The notes beneath the pieces were generated by a model. That model worked only from the letters and a program-made list of their open reading frames with translations. It did no database searches and was not told the DNA's origin. This document shows positions 24,976 through 55,821 of a stretch of DNA of 64,000 nucleotides, in pieces. A program made the translations under genes and the position numbers. The stretch is from Parageobacillus sp. KH3-4 (lineage in GTDB: Bacteria > Bacillota > Bacilli > Bacillales > Anoxybacillaceae). Where the stretch lies: positions 1,894,001 to 1,958,000 of the forward strand of contig NZ_AP025627.1 in assembly GCF_022846435.1 (NCBI RefSeq), given 5' to 3'. The number at the start of each line of letters is the position of its first letter. The stretch's first letter is position 1.

Positions 24976-25932
24976 CTACTTTATCCATTTCACACTATCC
25001 TTCTTCTCTTCATTGACTAACAGTTGAAACACATCCGGCCTTGAGTAGTGGCCGACCACATCAAAATCAAATTGGCCGTAGGCGATCTCACGCAAATCCA
25101 AATCGGCGATAAGAACGTCTTCCTTACCATAGACAGGTTCCTTGATATAATTTCCTAATGGGCCGACGATCGCGCTGCCTCCAGCGCACATCTCATGAGG
25201 GGCTGACGCCAGTTCTTCATAGCAGGCTAAATCCGTAGGGTACATGTCCTTCGTGACATACTGATTGCAAGATAAAACAAAACATCTTCCTTCCGCCGCA
25301 ATATGGCGAATCGTAGACTGCCAGAGTTCTCTAGCATCTGCCGTCGGGGCGATATAAATTTGGACTCCTTTGGCGTACATCGCTACTCTCGCCAACGGCA
25401 TATAGTTTTCCCAACAAACGAGCGCCCCTATTCTTCCATATGGCGTATCGTAAACAGGCAAAGTGCTTCCGTCTCCCTCTCCCCAGATGATGCGTTCAGA
25501 AGCTGTAGGTTTTAGCTTTCGGTGTTTTCCAAGCAAAGTGCCGTCTGGCCCAAAAAATAAAACACTGCAATAAAGAGTGCCTCTACTAAACTCGTTATCT
25601 CTCTCAACAACACCAATAACGAGATAGACTCCTGCCTTACGGGCTGCTTCTCCTAACATTTCGGTCGTTTCACTTGGCACAGTTACGGAATTTTCCCAGT
25701 AGCGGAGCCAGTCTTTTCGCCCTTCTGGTGAACGGCTTCCAACCCTCGTTCCAAAAGTAAGCCCTCTTGGATACGCAGGAATAAAAGCTTCTGGAAATAC
25801 GACGATATTCGCGCCTTTTTCAGCAGCTTGTTTCGTTAACGAAATCGCCTTTTCCGTACTTGCTGTTCGATCCATAATCACGGAAGCAGCTTGCACGACA
25901 GCTACGCGCACATGAGATTGTTTGTTCGCCAT
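24976..25932 (-). CDS. nitrilase (carbon-nitrogen hydrolase family)
   Basis: 318 residues. The catalytic triad is visible: Glu48 in VVFPEAFIPAYPRG, Lys in KHRKLKPTASER (136-147), and Cys173 in LVCWENYMPLAR. The IWGEGDGSTL and CWENYMP signatures are those of true (aryl)aliphatic nitrilases, as opposed to amidases or ureidopropionases. It would convert a nitrile to a carboxylic acid and ammonia in the cytosol. It appears monocistronic, with no aldoxime dehydratase beside it. The ATG at 25932 has AGGAGAG upstream. Confidence 0.92.
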   Translation of the reverse strand: MANKQSHVRVAVVQAASVIMDRTASTEKAISLTKQAAEKGANIVVFPEAFIPAYPRGLTFGTRVGSRSPEGRKDWLRYWENSVTVPSETTEMLGEAARKAGVYLVIGVVERDNEFSRGTLYCSVLFFGPDGTLLGKHRKLKPTASERIIWGEGDGSTLPVYDTPYGRIGALVCWENYMPLARVAMYAKGVQIYIAPTADARELWQSTIRHIAAEGRCFVLSCNQYVTKDMYPTDLACYEELASAPHEMCAGGSAIVGPLGNYIKEPVYGKEDVLIADLDLREIAYGQFDFDVVGHYSRPDVFQLLVNEEKKDSVKWIK

Positions 25933-26180: not shown

Positions 26181-28814
26181 TTATGACCATTTTTCCCATT
26201 GCCCGTTGTCCGGGTCAATGGAAACTAAACGGAGCCATCCGTTTTGCACTTTTTGTCGGAAATGAGGATCGTCTTCGAGCAAGCGCTCGATATGTTGCCG
26301 CGGCGCTTCGATGATGACGAGCAAGCGAAGCGGCGAATGGAACATTTCATGGTCGGACGCCATTACCGATTGCCACGGAAGCCCGGCAAGCAAGTCGCTC
26401 GCGTTTCCTTGCATGACTCCGATTCCCGCAGTGACCGTTTGCGTTGTTTTGCTGCCGCTTCCGTAGTAATGCGGAGCGATAGTCGATGCGTAATATTGCA
26501 AGTTAATCCATTGCGCAACAGTCACCGGACCGGCAATAATGTTTGCCAGAGACTCCCCAGACGGATCCTCGCGCCAGTCATAGCTATGCAAAAATACTTT
26601 CCCTTCTAAATCGCAATGCTTCGTTAGCTGGCGGCGCCCGATAATAAACGCGCCATTCCCCGCAAGCCCCCATTCCGGACGGATTTCGCTCCAGTCTTCC
26701 GCACGGCGGCGCGCCTCGGCAAGCGGATCTTTCGTTTTGCGACCCAATCCCGGCAGTTTCGCCAACCGCTCGTTATTCGCGTCGCGGCTTACTTCTTCCA
26801 GCTTGCCTTGCAGTATCTCAAACGCTTTTTGCGCCGCTTCTGAAAGCGTCGGCACATAAAGCCAACGAAGTTCATCAACCGTTGTCATATGCTCGGCAGC
26901 AACAAAAACAGTGTCCTCGGGAATAACGATGCCTTTTTCTGCAAGACCTTCGCGAACTTCTTTCAAGTTGCAAAGGGCAGCGAACACCCGTGCGTTGAAC
27001 CCTCCCGCCGCTCCGCCGCACGCACCGCAATCAAGCGACGAAGCGTAAGGATTGTTCGCCGTTTCACTTTCATGGCCGCAGACAACGACAAGTGGCGCAA
27101 AGCGGCTTGTAAGCCCCATTCCTTTTAATAGGCGATAAACGTACCGTACTTTTTCCTCGGTAGAAAAGCCTACGGGAAGATCCGCTGCTTCCCAATAAGA
27201 TTCCCGATCCAGCGAAAGTTCTGTTTCCGGCTTTTTCGCCCAATTGCCTAGAAACTGGCGAAATGCGCGGCCTGCTCCGCCCGGCGCTATACTTCGAGCA
27301 AGTGTGTGCAAACCGAGCCACGGTCCGCTCATTTCTGGAAGCAACAAACTGGCAAACAAATGCTGTTTCATTTTTTTGAACATATAGCTAAGCGAAAGTA
27401 GCACGTTGCGGCGGCCGCGATATTCCTTGACAATTGCCGCTGATGCATATTCGCGAACTTCATGAAGCGGCTCTACGATGGCTGGACAAGAAGCGTGCGC
27501 ATAGTCGCTATCCAGTTCGCGCGTCTTGATGGGAAGGCCGAAGAACCCAGCGCACCCATATGTTTCAAACGGACCTGCTTGCTCCAAATGACGACGGAAA
27601 GGTTCAGAACGAACATCGATACAAAAGATAAGCTGGACGATTGCTTGTTTTTGCTCATTGTTTGGAGAATGAGACGCAATTTTCTCCTTTAGCTGCGCCT
27701 CTTGCGTATCTTCCCACGCTTCCAGCCAAAGTTTGCCGCGAACAATTTTATCAAAGCGATAAGCCAGAGATAACCGCGCTTGTTGCTCAGCCTGCGGCAA
27801 TCGCAGCCATTCTTCCGGCGTCATCCCTCCCCAGTGCATCCAAGCCGCGAGAAGCGGAAGAAGAAACGTTTCATCGTCCTCTTTTTGTCTTGCCAATGGC
27901 AAATACGGCGCGATCAACGCCCATTCCAGCGAAAGGCGAATGGCTAAATAATCAACAAGCAGCAAATGCGCTTGACCGAACTGCTGCGAACGCCATTGTA
28001 GCATTCCTGTCCATCCCGGCAAGGAAAGAAGATGCGCTTCCAAGTAGTCTTTCACCGCGTCATGCGGTATGCCGAGCATGGTTAACGCTTGCTGCAATGC
28101 ATCTTCAGCATCTTGCGGCAAATTTCTCAATCGTTCGCGTTGCTCTTTGCTCAACGATGGGTCGTTAGTCACCAGTTTCCGCCATGCGCAGTAAAACCCT
28201 TTTTCCCGATATGGCAGCGGCCATGAAGCTTGCGATTCATCTAAAAATAATTTGCACCATTTAATCATATGATGGTCAAGCATCCGCGCCCATTCCCCTT
28301 CTCCTTGTTCTTCAAGAAGAAGGCTTAGCGGCCGGATTGGCAAACGTTCGGCACCGTCGCACAAGCGCATTCCTTTCATTTTTGCTGCCAGTTTTTTTAA
28401 CTGCGGAGACGTTAACACCTTATTCGGAATTTCTTCATGCTGAAGCGCGGTTCGGCAAAAACGTTCCGCTTCCTCGCGCGGCAACGCCAGCAGCTGCTCA
28501 TCCAGCCAGCGCTGCAGCCGCATTTCCAAAAACTCCGGATCCAACTCCCCTTTCCGCTGAGCCGCTCGCAACATGGACATGCTTGGATAAATGTCAATAT
28601 CTTTCAATGACTTTAAACGGCGGGCCACTTGCTCAAACGGAAGATGTTCTAGCCCCATCCATGGATGGCGAGCGATAAACGTGGCAATCGGCCAAAGCGG
28701 AGCGATTGCTTTGCTGGCATTTTGGACAAGCTCGGCCACATTGATAGCCGCGGCATCTTCTGTCCGTTGCTTGCGCACATTCGGGCGTTCGAGCGATACG
28801 ATAGTCGTGTTCAT
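26181..28814 (-). CDS. dabA: inorganic carbon uptake subunit DabA (DUF2309/UPF0753)
   Basis: 877 residues. DabA is a zinc, beta-carbonic-anhydrase-like cytoplasmic subunit that, with the membrane subunit DabB, performs energy-coupled hydration of CO2 to bicarbonate. The zinc ligands known from the Halothiobacillus protein have clear equivalents: Cys398 and Asp400 in LIFCIDVRSEP, and His581 and Cys596 in VVVCGHESET and SSLDCGACGG, with the same spacings. The early motif ARHPWMGLEHLPF is also family-typical. The start overlaps the dabB stop (ATGA), so the pair is co-translated. Terminator follows. Confidence 0.95.
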   Translation of the reverse strand: MNTTIVSLERPNVRKQRTEDAAAINVAELVQNASKAIAPLWPIATFIARHPWMGLEHLPFEQVARRLKSLKDIDIYPSMSMLRAAQRKGELDPEFLEMRLQRWLDEQLLALPREEAERFCRTALQHEEIPNKVLTSPQLKKLAAKMKGMRLCDGAERLPIRPLSLLLEEQGEGEWARMLDHHMIKWCKLFLDESQASWPLPYREKGFYCAWRKLVTNDPSLSKEQRERLRNLPQDAEDALQQALTMLGIPHDAVKDYLEAHLLSLPGWTGMLQWRSQQFGQAHLLLVDYLAIRLSLEWALIAPYLPLARQKEDDETFLLPLLAAWMHWGGMTPEEWLRLPQAEQQARLSLAYRFDKIVRGKLWLEAWEDTQEAQLKEKIASHSPNNEQKQAIVQLIFCIDVRSEPFRRHLEQAGPFETYGCAGFFGLPIKTRELDSDYAHASCPAIVEPLHEVREYASAAIVKEYRGRRNVLLSLSYMFKKMKQHLFASLLLPEMSGPWLGLHTLARSIAPGGAGRAFRQFLGNWAKKPETELSLDRESYWEAADLPVGFSTEEKVRYVYRLLKGMGLTSRFAPLVVVCGHESETANNPYASSLDCGACGGAAGGFNARVFAALCNLKEVREGLAEKGIVIPEDTVFVAAEHMTTVDELRWLYVPTLSEAAQKAFEILQGKLEEVSRDANNERLAKLPGLGRKTKDPLAEARRRAEDWSEIRPEWGLAGNGAFIIGRRQLTKHCDLEGKVFLHSYDWREDPSGESLANIIAGPVTVAQWINLQYYASTIAPHYYGSGSKTTQTVTAGIGVMQGNASDLLAGLPWQSVMASDHEMFHSPLRLLVIIEAPRQHIERLLEDDPHFRQKVQNGWLRLVSIDPDNGQWEKWS

Positions 28815-30316
28815 CCATTAACGACCTCCTTCTGCAAATAATCGGCAAGATAACGCGGATGGCTTTCCATCGACGCTAAGCGTGGTTCGCCCATATGGAC
28901 GAGCCACATATACAATCGCGCAAACACATCTGATGAACGATGGGCGGAAAGCCATATGCTCGCCAATCCGCCGGCTGCTAGCATCAAGACGGCTATCGCC
29001 CCAGCGGCAACAGATGTACTCGAATTTAGTGGCACCGTTTTATGCAAAAGCATCGTGAGACTACTGTGCACCGTCCCAGAAATGAAAACCGCCCCTGCCA
29101 ATACGAATAAGACAATGATCCGTCCGTCCTTAAAAACGGCAAGCCGCCCCCACGCAAACGCCAGCGACCAGCCAAGAATAAGACTGCTCAACCATTTCGC
29201 ATTTTCTTCCGGCGACATAAGCAAAACAATTCCTCCTACGACAAAGCCGCCCACCGCTCCGGCAAATCGCCATGTTTGGGACAAGCTTTGCGATAGACGA
29301 AGCGTTTTATTCGGGCGCGGCACAACCGAACCGGATTGCAAAAACAACGTCGCTTTAAACAGACCGTGCAACACTAAATGAATCACTGCTGCAACATAAG
29401 CCCCTAACGCACATTGAATGAGCATCAATCCCATTTGCGCCATCGTGGAGGCAACTAATTGCCGTTTATAATCAACTTGCACGAAACTAATTCCTGTGCC
29501 GATCAGCACCGAAATCGCGGCGAGAACAATCAGCAACATTTGTGATACATCACCATTAAACAACGGAGCAAATCTCGTCAGTAAAAGACCGCCGGCATTG
29601 ACCAGTCCGGCATGCATGACCGCAGAAATCGGCGTCGGCGTCACCGCGGATTCCAACAGCCAGCGCTGAAACGGCCATTGTCCGGCCGGGATGATCGCTG
29701 CCAAAACAAGCAGAACATTCAGCCCCGTTTTTTCCCACCATTCGAGATGGCGAATGCTTTCTGGCGACAAAGCAAGCGACAGCCGCCAATGTCCCGTTGC
29801 GCTCCATAGCCCTAAACCAGCGGCAAACAAGGCAAGCCAGCTTAACGAAAACACGGCAGCCATGCGCACCGCCGTCGTTCGCGCCGGACGCCATTCTTTT
29901 TTTAACCGTGCCAGTTGTGTCAACCCCAATAACGGCAAACCCCAAAAGAGAATAAGCAAGCGAATATCGTTGCTCAGCCATGTCAGCGCCGCAGCGCTAA
30001 CGGTAAAAGTAAGCAGTGTAAAATACTTTCGATACGCGCGGTCGCCATGCAAATAACGAAGACAAAAGCGCTCAATCACCCAGCCGAGCGTCAAAATAAA
30101 CAATGCCATAAGCCAGCCGAGCATATCGGAACGCCATAATCCGGCTACAGCGTGATGATTAGCAAAAATCAGCCCCGCTAACGCCATGGCGATCGGCAAC
30201 ACCATCACACCTACGTGCACCCGCACATAGCATAGCGGCACACGCCGATCCAATAGCAATAAAGAACTGACGAGAACAATTCCAACCGTTGCAAATAACA
30301 AGATGAACCAAACCAA
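28811..30316 (-). CDS. dabB: DabB proton-conducting membrane subunit (NuoL/MrpA-like)
   Basis: About 501 residues. The TTG at 30316 has AGAGGGGGATT immediately before it; a longer in-frame ORF to 30412 has no binding site and runs through the leader terminator, so the TTG is preferred. About 14 membrane segments, with the antiporter-core motifs WPFQRWLLESAVTPTPISAVMHAGLVNAGG and the conserved histidines in LVLHGLFKATLFLQSG, as in NADH-quinone oxidoreductase subunit 5. No other complex I gene is nearby, and the partner is DabA, so proton-driven inorganic carbon uptake is the role. Confidence 0.9.
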   Translation of the reverse strand: MVWFILLFATVGIVLVSSLLLLDRRVPLCYVRVHVGVMVLPIAMALAGLIFANHHAVAGLWRSDMLGWLMALFILTLGWVIERFCLRYLHGDRAYRKYFTLLTFTVSAAALTWLSNDIRLLILFWGLPLLGLTQLARLKKEWRPARTTAVRMAAVFSLSWLALFAAGLGLWSATGHWRLSLALSPESIRHLEWWEKTGLNVLLVLAAIIPAGQWPFQRWLLESAVTPTPISAVMHAGLVNAGGLLLTRFAPLFNGDVSQMLLIVLAAISVLIGTGISFVQVDYKRQLVASTMAQMGLMLIQCALGAYVAAVIHLVLHGLFKATLFLQSGSVVPRPNKTLRLSQSLSQTWRFAGAVGGFVVGGIVLLMSPEENAKWLSSLILGWSLAFAWGRLAVFKDGRIIVLFVLAGAVFISGTVHSSLTMLLHKTVPLNSSTSVAAGAIAVLMLAAGGLASIWLSAHRSSDVFARLYMWLVHMGEPRLASMESHPRYLADYLQKEVVNG

Positions 30317-30346
30317 CGCGAATCCCCCTCTCTTTTTCGCAACAAA

Positions 30347-30432
30347 AAACCGGCTATGTCGTCCCCGTCCATCGTGTTTCCCTTTTTCATCAAAAGGGCG
30401 CACGAATGGCATCGAGTACGCATAGCCGGTTT
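30347..30432 (-). terminator. leader terminator/attenuator in front of dabB
   Basis: On the minus strand AAACCGGCTATG (30432-30421) pairs perfectly with CATAGCCGGTTT (30358-30347), followed by further T residues (TTTTTTGTT in all). The intervening 62 bases form an inner stem (TCGTG/CACGA and CCCTTTT/AAAAGGG). Its 5' arm overlaps the P1 3' strand (ACCGG, 30430-30426) of the adjacent RNA motif, so the two structures compete. It ends 30 bases before the dabB start codon. Confidence 0.7.
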
Positions 30433-30473
30433 ATCTTCAACGAGCCGATAAGGCTTTTTGAAGATCTACCAAA
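30426..30473 (-). promoter_or_regulatory. leader RNA motif, copy B
   Basis: P1 TTTGGT/ACCGG, joining AGA, P2 TCTTCAA/TTGAAGA, inner hairpin AGCC-TTATC-GGCT, joining TAA. The same architecture as copy A, with compensatory changes in the first two base pairs of P2. Overlaps the terminator's 5' arm. Confidence 0.6.
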
Positions 30474-30491
30474 TTGTACGTATTTCCGCTC

Positions 30492-30546
30492 TTCGGTTTA
30501 CTTTCAACCACTCCGCCGCAAACGGACTGTTTGAAAGTCTACCGAA
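30492..30546 (-). promoter_or_regulatory. leader RNA motif, copy A
   Basis: P1 TTCGGT/ACCGAA, joining AGA, P2 CTTTCAA/TTGAAAG, inner stem TCCG/CGGA, joining TAA before P1'. Joining bases (GGTAGA on the 5' side, TAAACCG on the 3' side) are identical to copy B, 18 bases downstream. Begins about 30 bases after the predicted transcription start. Confidence 0.6.
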
Positions 30547-30582
30547 TTACGAAAAATTCAAATTTTATTCGTATGCTATTTA

Positions 30583-30611
30583 ATTTAATATGGAAACGCA
30601 TGGTTTGTCAA
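30583..30611 (-). promoter_or_regulatory. sigma-A promoter of dabBA
   Basis: Minus strand TTGACA (30611-30606), 17-base spacer, TTAAAT (30588-30583). Consensus -35 and a 4/6 -10. The predicted start lies about 30 bases before leader motif A. Confidence 0.6.
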
Positions 30612-55467: not shown

Positions 55468-55540
55468 AGAAAAAGAAAGCTCAAAAAGCTCAAATAGACG
55501 TTCGAGCGCGCAGCATTCGAACGCCGGCAAACCTTCATCT

Positions 55541-55665
55541 TCTCCCATCCAGACTATACTGTCGGCTCCGGACTTGCACCGGATCGTGCCTAAACGGCTC
55601 GCGGGCTGAGAAGCGCATTGGCTTCATCACCGCCGGTCGGGAATTTCACCCTGCCCCGAAGATGA
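55541..55665 (-). ncRNA. FMN riboswitch (RFN element)
   Basis: On the minus strand: CTTCGGGGCAGGGTGAAATT, CCCGACCGGCGGTGATGAAG, later GGTGCAAGTCCGGAGCCGAC and AGTATAGTCTGGATGGGAGA. These are the invariant RFN blocks in order. Controls ribU by FMN-dependent termination. Confidence 0.97.
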
Positions 55666-55821
55666 ATCGTATATTTTTTATATGCGATTATACGTTTAGT
55701 ATACAATTTTTATATAAATTCTGTCTACCATTTTTTATGCAACAAAGTTTTTTATTTGCGCAACATTTTTATGATAAAATAAAAACGGAAAAAGATAGCA
55801 AATAGTAAGGAGAGTGGCTAG

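Follow-up and report, generated by a model that had tools for sequence, protein, structure and literature searches.

A putative antiterminator RNA in the leaders of inorganic-carbon transporter genes of Bacilli and its association with the MpsC protein family (PF10057)

We have identified a small structured RNA, designated E1, that is present in two copies in the leader of the dabB and dabA genes in a window of 64,000 nucleotides (the whole stretch of Parageobacillus sp. KH3-4 DNA that was analysed), and that also precedes genes for inorganic-carbon transporters in other Bacilli. To judge from its position, E1 is a regulator of inorganic-carbon uptake; comparison of homologous leaders strongly supports the view that it would act by antitermination, and it is new to the collections searched. 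We lean towards the view that E1 and a second leader RNA, E2, are antiterminators of systems that are off by default, that they would be stabilised by a trans-acting factor, for which the MpsC protein is the likeliest candidate, and that they would respond to inorganic carbon.

The leader lies on the minus strand, as do all features of the window given here. The genes that it would control are dabB (28811-30316; ndhF/mpsA-like, Pfam PF00361, E 1.2e-43), whose product is described by NCBIfam NF006373 as 'NADH dehydrogenase subunit 5' and which we call DabB because its neighbor is dabA, and dabA itself (26181-28814; PF10070 DabA, E 1.3e-271). A carbon-nitrogen hydrolase gene (PF00795) is found downstream of dabA, at 24976-25932. 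The start of dabB is probably the TTG codon at 30316, behind a Shine-Dalgarno-like stretch GAGAGGGGG (30324-30332). The frame is also open upstream of this likely start, through the 3' arm of the terminator, up to an ATG at 30412 (28811-30412), and this upstream-most ATG falls within the terminator loop.

An earlier note, made from the letters of the window, had described in this leader two copies of one motif with compensatory changes in helix P2 between them, and a 12-base terminator that shares a strand with the second copy. Both copies, the P2 changes and the terminator were found as claimed. Copy A (30492-30546) is of the antiterminator type and comprises P1 (TTCGGT/ACCGAA), a loop AG/AA, P2 and an inner hairpin; in its own genome it is matched by the covariance model R1, whose training set includes it, with 62.2 bits (E 8.4e-12), and by the model R2 with E 3.6e-9, and its predicted fold agrees with the drawn structure. 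Copy B (30427-30471), likewise a member of the R1 training set, is matched by R1 with 61.1 bits (E 1.7e-11) and by R2 with E 2.0e-12, and its 3' strand AAACC(GG) shares bases with the 5' arm of the intrinsic terminator (30344-30432). The latter consists of a 12-bp outer stem, AAACCGGCTATG/CATAGCCGGTTT, with the 5' arm at 30432-30421 and the 3' arm from 30358, a structured loop and a U run that extends to 30344. It is present in the minimum-energy fold of the window leader and is missing from a consensus scan because its loop exceeds the 3-8 bases that the scan allows. The folding energy of the 234-nt leader is -98.6 kcal/mol, compared with -56.7 +/- 4.5 in shuffled sequences (z = -9.24), and the two hairpins taken alone give z = -7.69 against their shuffles. 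The upstream promoter claimed in the same note does exist as a putative site, TTGACA-18 nt-TAAATT, at 30582-30611 (consensus scan, 10/12 matches), but the epithet 'good' did not hold, since the scan finds one promoter-like site here and a mean of 1.6 in shuffles, which makes the signal weak when taken alone.

The core of E1 is an 8-bp helix between two internal loops, NAG/AAA and AA/NG, closed by GG/CC. The bases of the joining segments GGTAGA and TAAACC, as originally described, are there, and with more sequences they resolve into the GG/CC of P1, the three-by-three loop NAG/AAA and an A-T pair, which we assigned to P2 because it covaries (A-U, C-G, U-A). Two alignments were examined: A2, with 37 distinct copies from the family, aligned by MAFFT, and A5, with 108 matches (105 distinct), which was fitted to the model and thereby favors the drawn structure; alignment A2 gives the same picture. 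In A2, two-sided changes occur at eight of 18 pairs, with 11-60, 12-59, 23-48 and 25-46 the most frequent. In A5, 85.0% of the paired cells can pair (72.8% in shuffles), two-sided changes are seen in 15 of the 18 pairs (11.6 in shuffles; one shuffle in 500 was as high), and the covariation score of 0.377 is not reached by any of 500 shuffles (mean 0.153). The claim of a new structured RNA with real covariation was thus borne out by 105 distinct copies, and a chance hairpin is ruled out by the same covariation. The 13 pairs of P2 and the inner stem are 94% paired; P1 keeps an invariant GG/CC and otherwise pairs poorly, at 62% of cells over the whole helix. The outer loop reads NAG on the 5' side in 98 of 105 copies and AAA on the 3' side in 95, and the inner loop AA on the 5' side in 78 and NG on the 3' side in 101. 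These counts place opposed G and A at both ends of the 8-bp helix in reversed orientation, from which we infer a two-fold-like (pseudo-symmetric) pair of loops. Matches of R1 on the antisense strand proved to be shadows of the symmetry of the hairpin; they are gone from A5 under a stricter cut-off, which also lost the loci L183 and L199.

Within the family (Anoxybacillaceae), dabA is present in 23 of 41 genomes, and two E1 copies were found in all 23 dabA leaders by a relaxed search and inspection of three deviating copies, so that the motif is conserved upstream of dabBA in the relatives. Neither lack of conservation nor membership in a described RNA family, both named in the earlier note as grounds for refutation, was encountered. 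The tandem arrangement holds for these 23 genomes, whereas elsewhere there is mostly one E1, or E2 followed by E1. Exact matches of the joining bases are limited to six genomes from three genera of the family. R1 matched 23/23 genomes with dabA and 0/18 without it, an exact agreement that is partly by design, since R1 was trained on the dabB copies of the family; R2 finds a variant E1 before sbtA in family members that lack dabA. In the order, R1 matches 63 of 299 genomes (43 of 117 genera) and R2 matches 83 of 299 (52 genera), hence E1 is absent from most of them; searches over more than 40 genomes used stricter filters, by which weak matches are lost. In the class, R2 matches 35 of 299 genomes, of which 25 belong outside the order, and in the 20 loci from 20 of those 25 genomes E1 is followed without exception by dabB (14) or sbtA (6). 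E1 also precedes a dabB homolog in Bacillus spizizenii and B. mojavensis.

All 64 loci matched by R1 outside the family were examined, and 60 were accepted. The next gene is dabB in 21, sbtA in 31 and neither in 12, and thus dabB or sbtA follows E1 in 52 of the 60 accepted loci of the sister families. The identity of SbtA is supported by PF05982 in the three proteins scanned, and three of the 31 sbtA matches (L132, L133, L136) are only ~30% identical to the query. Eight of the 12 remaining loci do contain E1 and a terminator. In L110, L120, L127 and L141 the next long frame is icd, the gene for isocitrate dehydrogenase; in L121 and L130, a DUF6671-like gene comes first, then a short frame and icd; in L124, as well as in L283 of genome G058, E2 and E1 precede a DUF6671 gene and a frame which we take to be ilvD-like; in L100 there is no gene in reach. 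Pfam was run on one icd (L127) and one DUF6671 (L124), and the others were named by likeness. The copies before icd suggest that the regulon extends to a CO2-releasing or CO2-fixing step. The other four matches, L151-L154, were judged false by eye, as they lie inside genes or lack a matching terminator. The presence of this RNA before sbtA as well, a gene for an unrelated inorganic-carbon transporter, ties it to inorganic carbon more strongly than the earlier note had grounds to claim.

The position of E1 relative to the terminator strongly supports antitermination. Of 83 sites compared, comprising the 60 accepted extra-family loci and one site from each family leader, 79 have a terminator stem whose first bases are precisely the AAA of the E1 strand AAACC, and the same register recurs at shifted positions in at most 17/83. 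This control is telling only for the register; with 'any stem of 8 bp' as the criterion it has little force (up to 81/83 when shifted). Because the AAACC strand is common to both, E1 and the terminator are mutually exclusive, as had been claimed for copy B. The mean energy is -15.6 kcal/mol for the isolated E1 and -33.0 for the terminator, and in 77/79 sites the lowest-energy fold assigns four or all five AAACC bases to the terminator; these folds are thermodynamic and leave co-transcriptional kinetics aside. Since the terminator wins the lowest-energy fold, the default should be termination (off), and something would have to stabilise E1, the closing stem of which has only two (nearly) invariant G-C pairs, to permit read-through. 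It is true that terminators are common and that the promoter signal is weak, and one might therefore see here an ordinary terminator with chance hairpins and no regulation at all; this explanation is scarcely credible, since it is already contradicted by the comparative data, namely the 105 distinct covarying copies, the fixed terminator register and the constant gene context in many families.

Comparison with all Rfam families revealed no known relative of the leader. At the gathering score, a scan of the window and 16 loci yielded nothing but a tRNA in L092 and, away from the leader, an ordinary FMN riboswitch in the window (55533-55667, 121.3 bits). A permissive scan of 451 leader bases and 15 loci returned only weak, chance-level matches far below the gathering scores, those on E1 or the terminator being to microRNA-type hairpin models (14.5 of 230 bits for copy A, 32.4 of 100 for L124). 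A Phe_leader match in L168 was rejected, as its 41.2 bits are below the required 55 and it lies on the strand opposite to mpsC. A PreQ1-like match in L200 (2061-2107, plus strand; 31.4 of 39 bits) is also below gathering. In the open-licence literature searched we found no description of an E1-type RNA or of a riboswitch for bicarbonate or CO2. A related entry is a 157-nt segment before ndhF (= dabB) of B. subtilis, which was listed as an entropy-ranked RNA switch candidate (ranks 77 and 48 in two separate lists; PMC4448311); in the parts of that report seen it is a ranked window only, with no motif, covariation, terminator register or link to MpsC given.

Many E1 elements start at the mpsC stop codon; mpsC encodes a PF10057 protein. 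Among the 60 accepted extra-family loci, mpsC is found just upstream of E1 on the same strand in 33, comprising 28 of the 31 sbtA loci and five of the 21 dabB loci. Retrieval was also carried out from the protein side, using the best 80 of 373 mpsC loci. In these 80, R1 found E1 in 37 (E <= 0.02), including four family members from its training, and R2 in 44, some of them from its own training set. The 44 loci with E1 carry sbtA (35), dab genes (7) or neither in reach (2), and the 36 without E1 carry sbtA (7), dab genes (17) or neither (12). In 39 of the 44 pairs E1 starts between -10 and +18 nt from the mpsC stop, and in the other five at 85 to 168 nt; this table includes L208 (E 0.062) and omits L236, where E1 is 1.2 kb away. 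When the genomes of the 17 dab loci and of L236 were searched as a whole, E1 was found in 16 of the 18, before dabB in 15 and before sbtA in one; it was not found in Staphylococcus arlettae or Alicyclobacillus ferrooxydans (one genome each). In the window genome, the mpsC gene of the E1-linked, so-called W-type (L155; G000:C1:1516045-1516404; PF10057 128.9 bits, cut-off 23) lies ~408 kb from the dabBA leader. A terminator-like leader precedes it, a terminator-like stretch lies downstream, and no sbtA was seen beside it.

The mpsC gene itself is frequently preceded by the second RNA, E2, with the arrangement ACCGA-NNG-AU ... GCUUU-AG-CA ... UG-AA-AAAGC ... AU-AAA-UCGGU, in which UCGGU also opens a terminator arm. 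E1 and E2 have loops of the NAG/AAA type in common. The inner hairpin was recovered by RNAalifold without guidance, the outer stem was not; the pairs of this outer stem hardly vary, so that its support is conservation and not covariation; the structure as drawn scores 0.263 as a whole, compared with 0.190 in shuffles (0/500 reach it). The E2 model, R3, identified 64 places in 58 of 299 genomes and none in the window genome. Of these, 43 are before mpsC (one of them broken), 18 directly before E1 and three before neither, and there are 39 E2-mpsC-E1 cassettes. E2 has no Rfam match at the gathering score in the loci scanned, and is best read as a new RNA that would serve as an antiterminator with its own terminator.

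PF10057 occurs in 213 of 299 genomes of the order, paralogs included. A profile of the W-type (A3) separates 96 genomes, with at least 149 bits, from the next ones, with at most 102. W-type MpsC and E1 (R2) are both present in 81 of the 299 genomes; E1 alone is found in two, MpsC alone in 15 and neither in 201 (Fisher p = 1e-54, a value that ignores shared ancestry). Inspected by eye, the two exceptions with E1 alone are an apparent chance match inside a reading frame (G245, E 0.002) and a decaying locus with broken mpsC and broken sbtA (G093, E 0.0014); G211, where E2 is followed by an mpsC stub, lacks W-type MpsC and has no E1 match. The earlier note had proposed a riboswitch, which as stated is not supported, given that MpsC accompanies E1 in 81 of 83 genomes and that mpsC often abuts it. 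An explanation of E1 (and E2) as riboswitches that bind bicarbonate, a CO2-derived carbamate or a metabolite of carbon status, with MpsC as just a functional neighbor, would account for regulated genes that have a substrate and not a fold in common, and for the conserved loops and the overlap of antiterminator and terminator; small riboswitches of two short hairpins do exist, e.g. guanidine-II. A conserved structure that is exclusive with the expression platform, typical of riboswitches, is indeed present in E1, and protein-bound antiterminators share this feature. We nevertheless regard the riboswitch explanation as unlikely, in view of the near-complete co-occurrence with W-type MpsC, the abutting genes, a loop type shared by two RNAs that are otherwise dissimilar, and the few strictly conserved bases outside the helices. 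The co-occurrence, the adjacency, the recurring loop and the two-fold character of the loops favor a bound protein over a small ligand, without amounting to proof.

In 15 genomes with W-type MpsC, E1 was not found; sbtA is present in the fetched flank of 14 of them (all but G218), which tells against a strict pairing of MpsC with E1. By eye, four of the 14 (G127, G206, G231, G081) possess a divergent GGGAG...AGACC leader and the other ten do not; in G070 no E1 was found between mpsC and sbtA, and G241, G264, G306 and G326 have more distant MpsC and sbtA, with E1 not found. In five loci of one genus (L329, L333, L336, L361, L363) a leader and terminator of another kind (...CAGAGGCCAACG... or similar) lie between mpsC and sbtA; this leader is possibly a further divergent E1. 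MpsC might accordingly be seen as a partner of the transporter proteins, a role comparable to that of cyanobacterial SbtB, encoded beside SbtA, with E1 and E2 read by another, unlinked RNA-binding protein. This would agree with the persistence of mpsC beside sbtA where E1 was not found, and with the location of dabBA upstream of mpsC in 16 of the 17 dab loci without E1 among the best 80 of 373 mpsC loci (17 when L236 is counted). We find it quite improbable, because E2 precedes mpsC itself in 43 of its 64 places, MpsC and E1 co-occur even when mpsC is far off, as in the window genome, and an unsystematic look at the loci viewed brought up no other constantly linked gene. Twenty strong PF10057 matches unlinked to E1 (16 from genomes without E1, four second copies in genomes with it) were also inspected: 17 are other paralogs with no sbtA, dabA or dabB within ~1.5 kb, and three are W-type beside sbtA. 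The paralogs in L330-L332, L334, L335, L337, L338 and L340-L348 are GVLTVEEKHL-like, ~36-43% identical to the W-type and without sbtA, dabA or dabB nearby, and L339 is of yet another type. A recognition code between MpsC subgroup and loop base (A in 26/26 versus mostly other bases) was considered and is not put forward, since the window genome does not follow it.

AlphaFold2 models the MpsC of the window genome with confidence (pLDDT 90.9), and no clear relative was found in the PDB by sequence or by fold. The best Foldseek match has E 0.018 (TRAPPC3), with several ribosomal-protein chains among the weak ones, and the best VIA match has Z 7.6 (FtsK motor), in the range where a common arrangement alone may explain the score. 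No recognised RNA-binding domain was found by sequence, fold or Pfam; in particular, Pfam searches with the proteins of L155 and L041 gave no CAT_RBD, PRD or ANTAR family at E <= 1, the former having one sub-threshold chance match (12.3 of 23.6 bits). The proposed system nonetheless resembles that of RAT hairpins, which are bound by the antiterminators BglG, LicT and SacY: there, too, a hairpin with internal loops overlaps the 5' arm of a terminator, the default is off, and the hairpin and the transporter gene are often directly preceded by the regulator gene. The overlap is seen in E1 (in register in 79/83 sites), and the upstream regulator gene in the 39 of 44 close mpsC-E1 pairs, though not in the window, where mpsC is not adjacent. 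E1 differs in sequence, in its candidate regulator, a PF10057 protein without CAT RNA-binding or PRD domain, and in its targets, which are inorganic-carbon transporters and not sugar PTS genes. A search with the RAT consensus GGATTGTTACTG (<=3 mismatches) gave 51 matches in the window versus 49.3 expected, and none in 30344-30546. E1 would thus work like a RAT-type antiterminator, and by the tests made it is not a member of that family. Antitermination by ANTAR proteins is similar in mechanism and, at some loci, in having a pair of consecutive hairpins close to a terminator, but ANTAR targets carry their conserved bases in apical hexaloops, whereas those of E1 occupy the internal loops that flank a helix, and no ANTAR domain was found in MpsC. 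With the ion and small-ligand riboswitches of Rfam 15, E1 shares the leader position and an aptamer-like hairpin exclusive with a terminator; it differs from them in having no gathering-score match and in its linkage to a protein gene.

According to the mechanism that we favor, E1 would hold AAACC in its hairpin and so block the terminator, and RNA polymerase would read into dabBA or sbtA. A trans-acting factor would bind the 8-bp helix with its two G.A-type loops, and the likeliest factor is W-type MpsC (PF10057, ~120 aa), which would act in trans in the window genome because of the distance of its gene; through E2, mpsC itself would come under the control of its product. Low inorganic carbon (CO2/HCO3-) is the most probable signal, with uptake when carbon is scarce; MpsC as the factor and inorganic carbon as the signal are what we infer. 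Whether MpsC is the first of a new dimeric class of RNA-binding proteins, at the center of a CO2/bicarbonate-responsive antitermination regulon of Bacilli in which it reads the G.A loop pairs of E1 and E2 and autoregulates, we regard as evenly balanced.

Some published observations bear on this proposal. The sections of PMC6689103 consulted report that in S. aureus deletion of mpsC causes no growth defect, a point against the proposal that is tempered by the lack of an E1 match in S. arlettae, the one Staphylococcus genome searched, that a weak terminator separates mpsAB from mpsC, and that mpsA is 1.7- to 2.5-fold lower at 5% CO2 in three strains (significantly in one), an effect for which section 10 names no regulator. 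In B. subtilis, according to the relevant part of PMC7857571, ndhF-ybcC (dabBA) is up sevenfold in the absence of c-di-AMP, which makes another signal possible.

The control of CO2/bicarbonate sensing and uptake in Gram-positive heterotrophs is, to our knowledge, poorly known. E1 provides a concrete cis-element before two uptake systems and a candidate regulator in a protein family of unknown function, and its presence in two species closely related to B. subtilis, B. spizizenii and B. mojavensis, offers a route into a model organism. A new class of RNA-binding proteins and a bicarbonate riboswitch would each be new within the literature searched, and recognition of E1 and E2 by MpsC, if true, would explain the PF10057 family.
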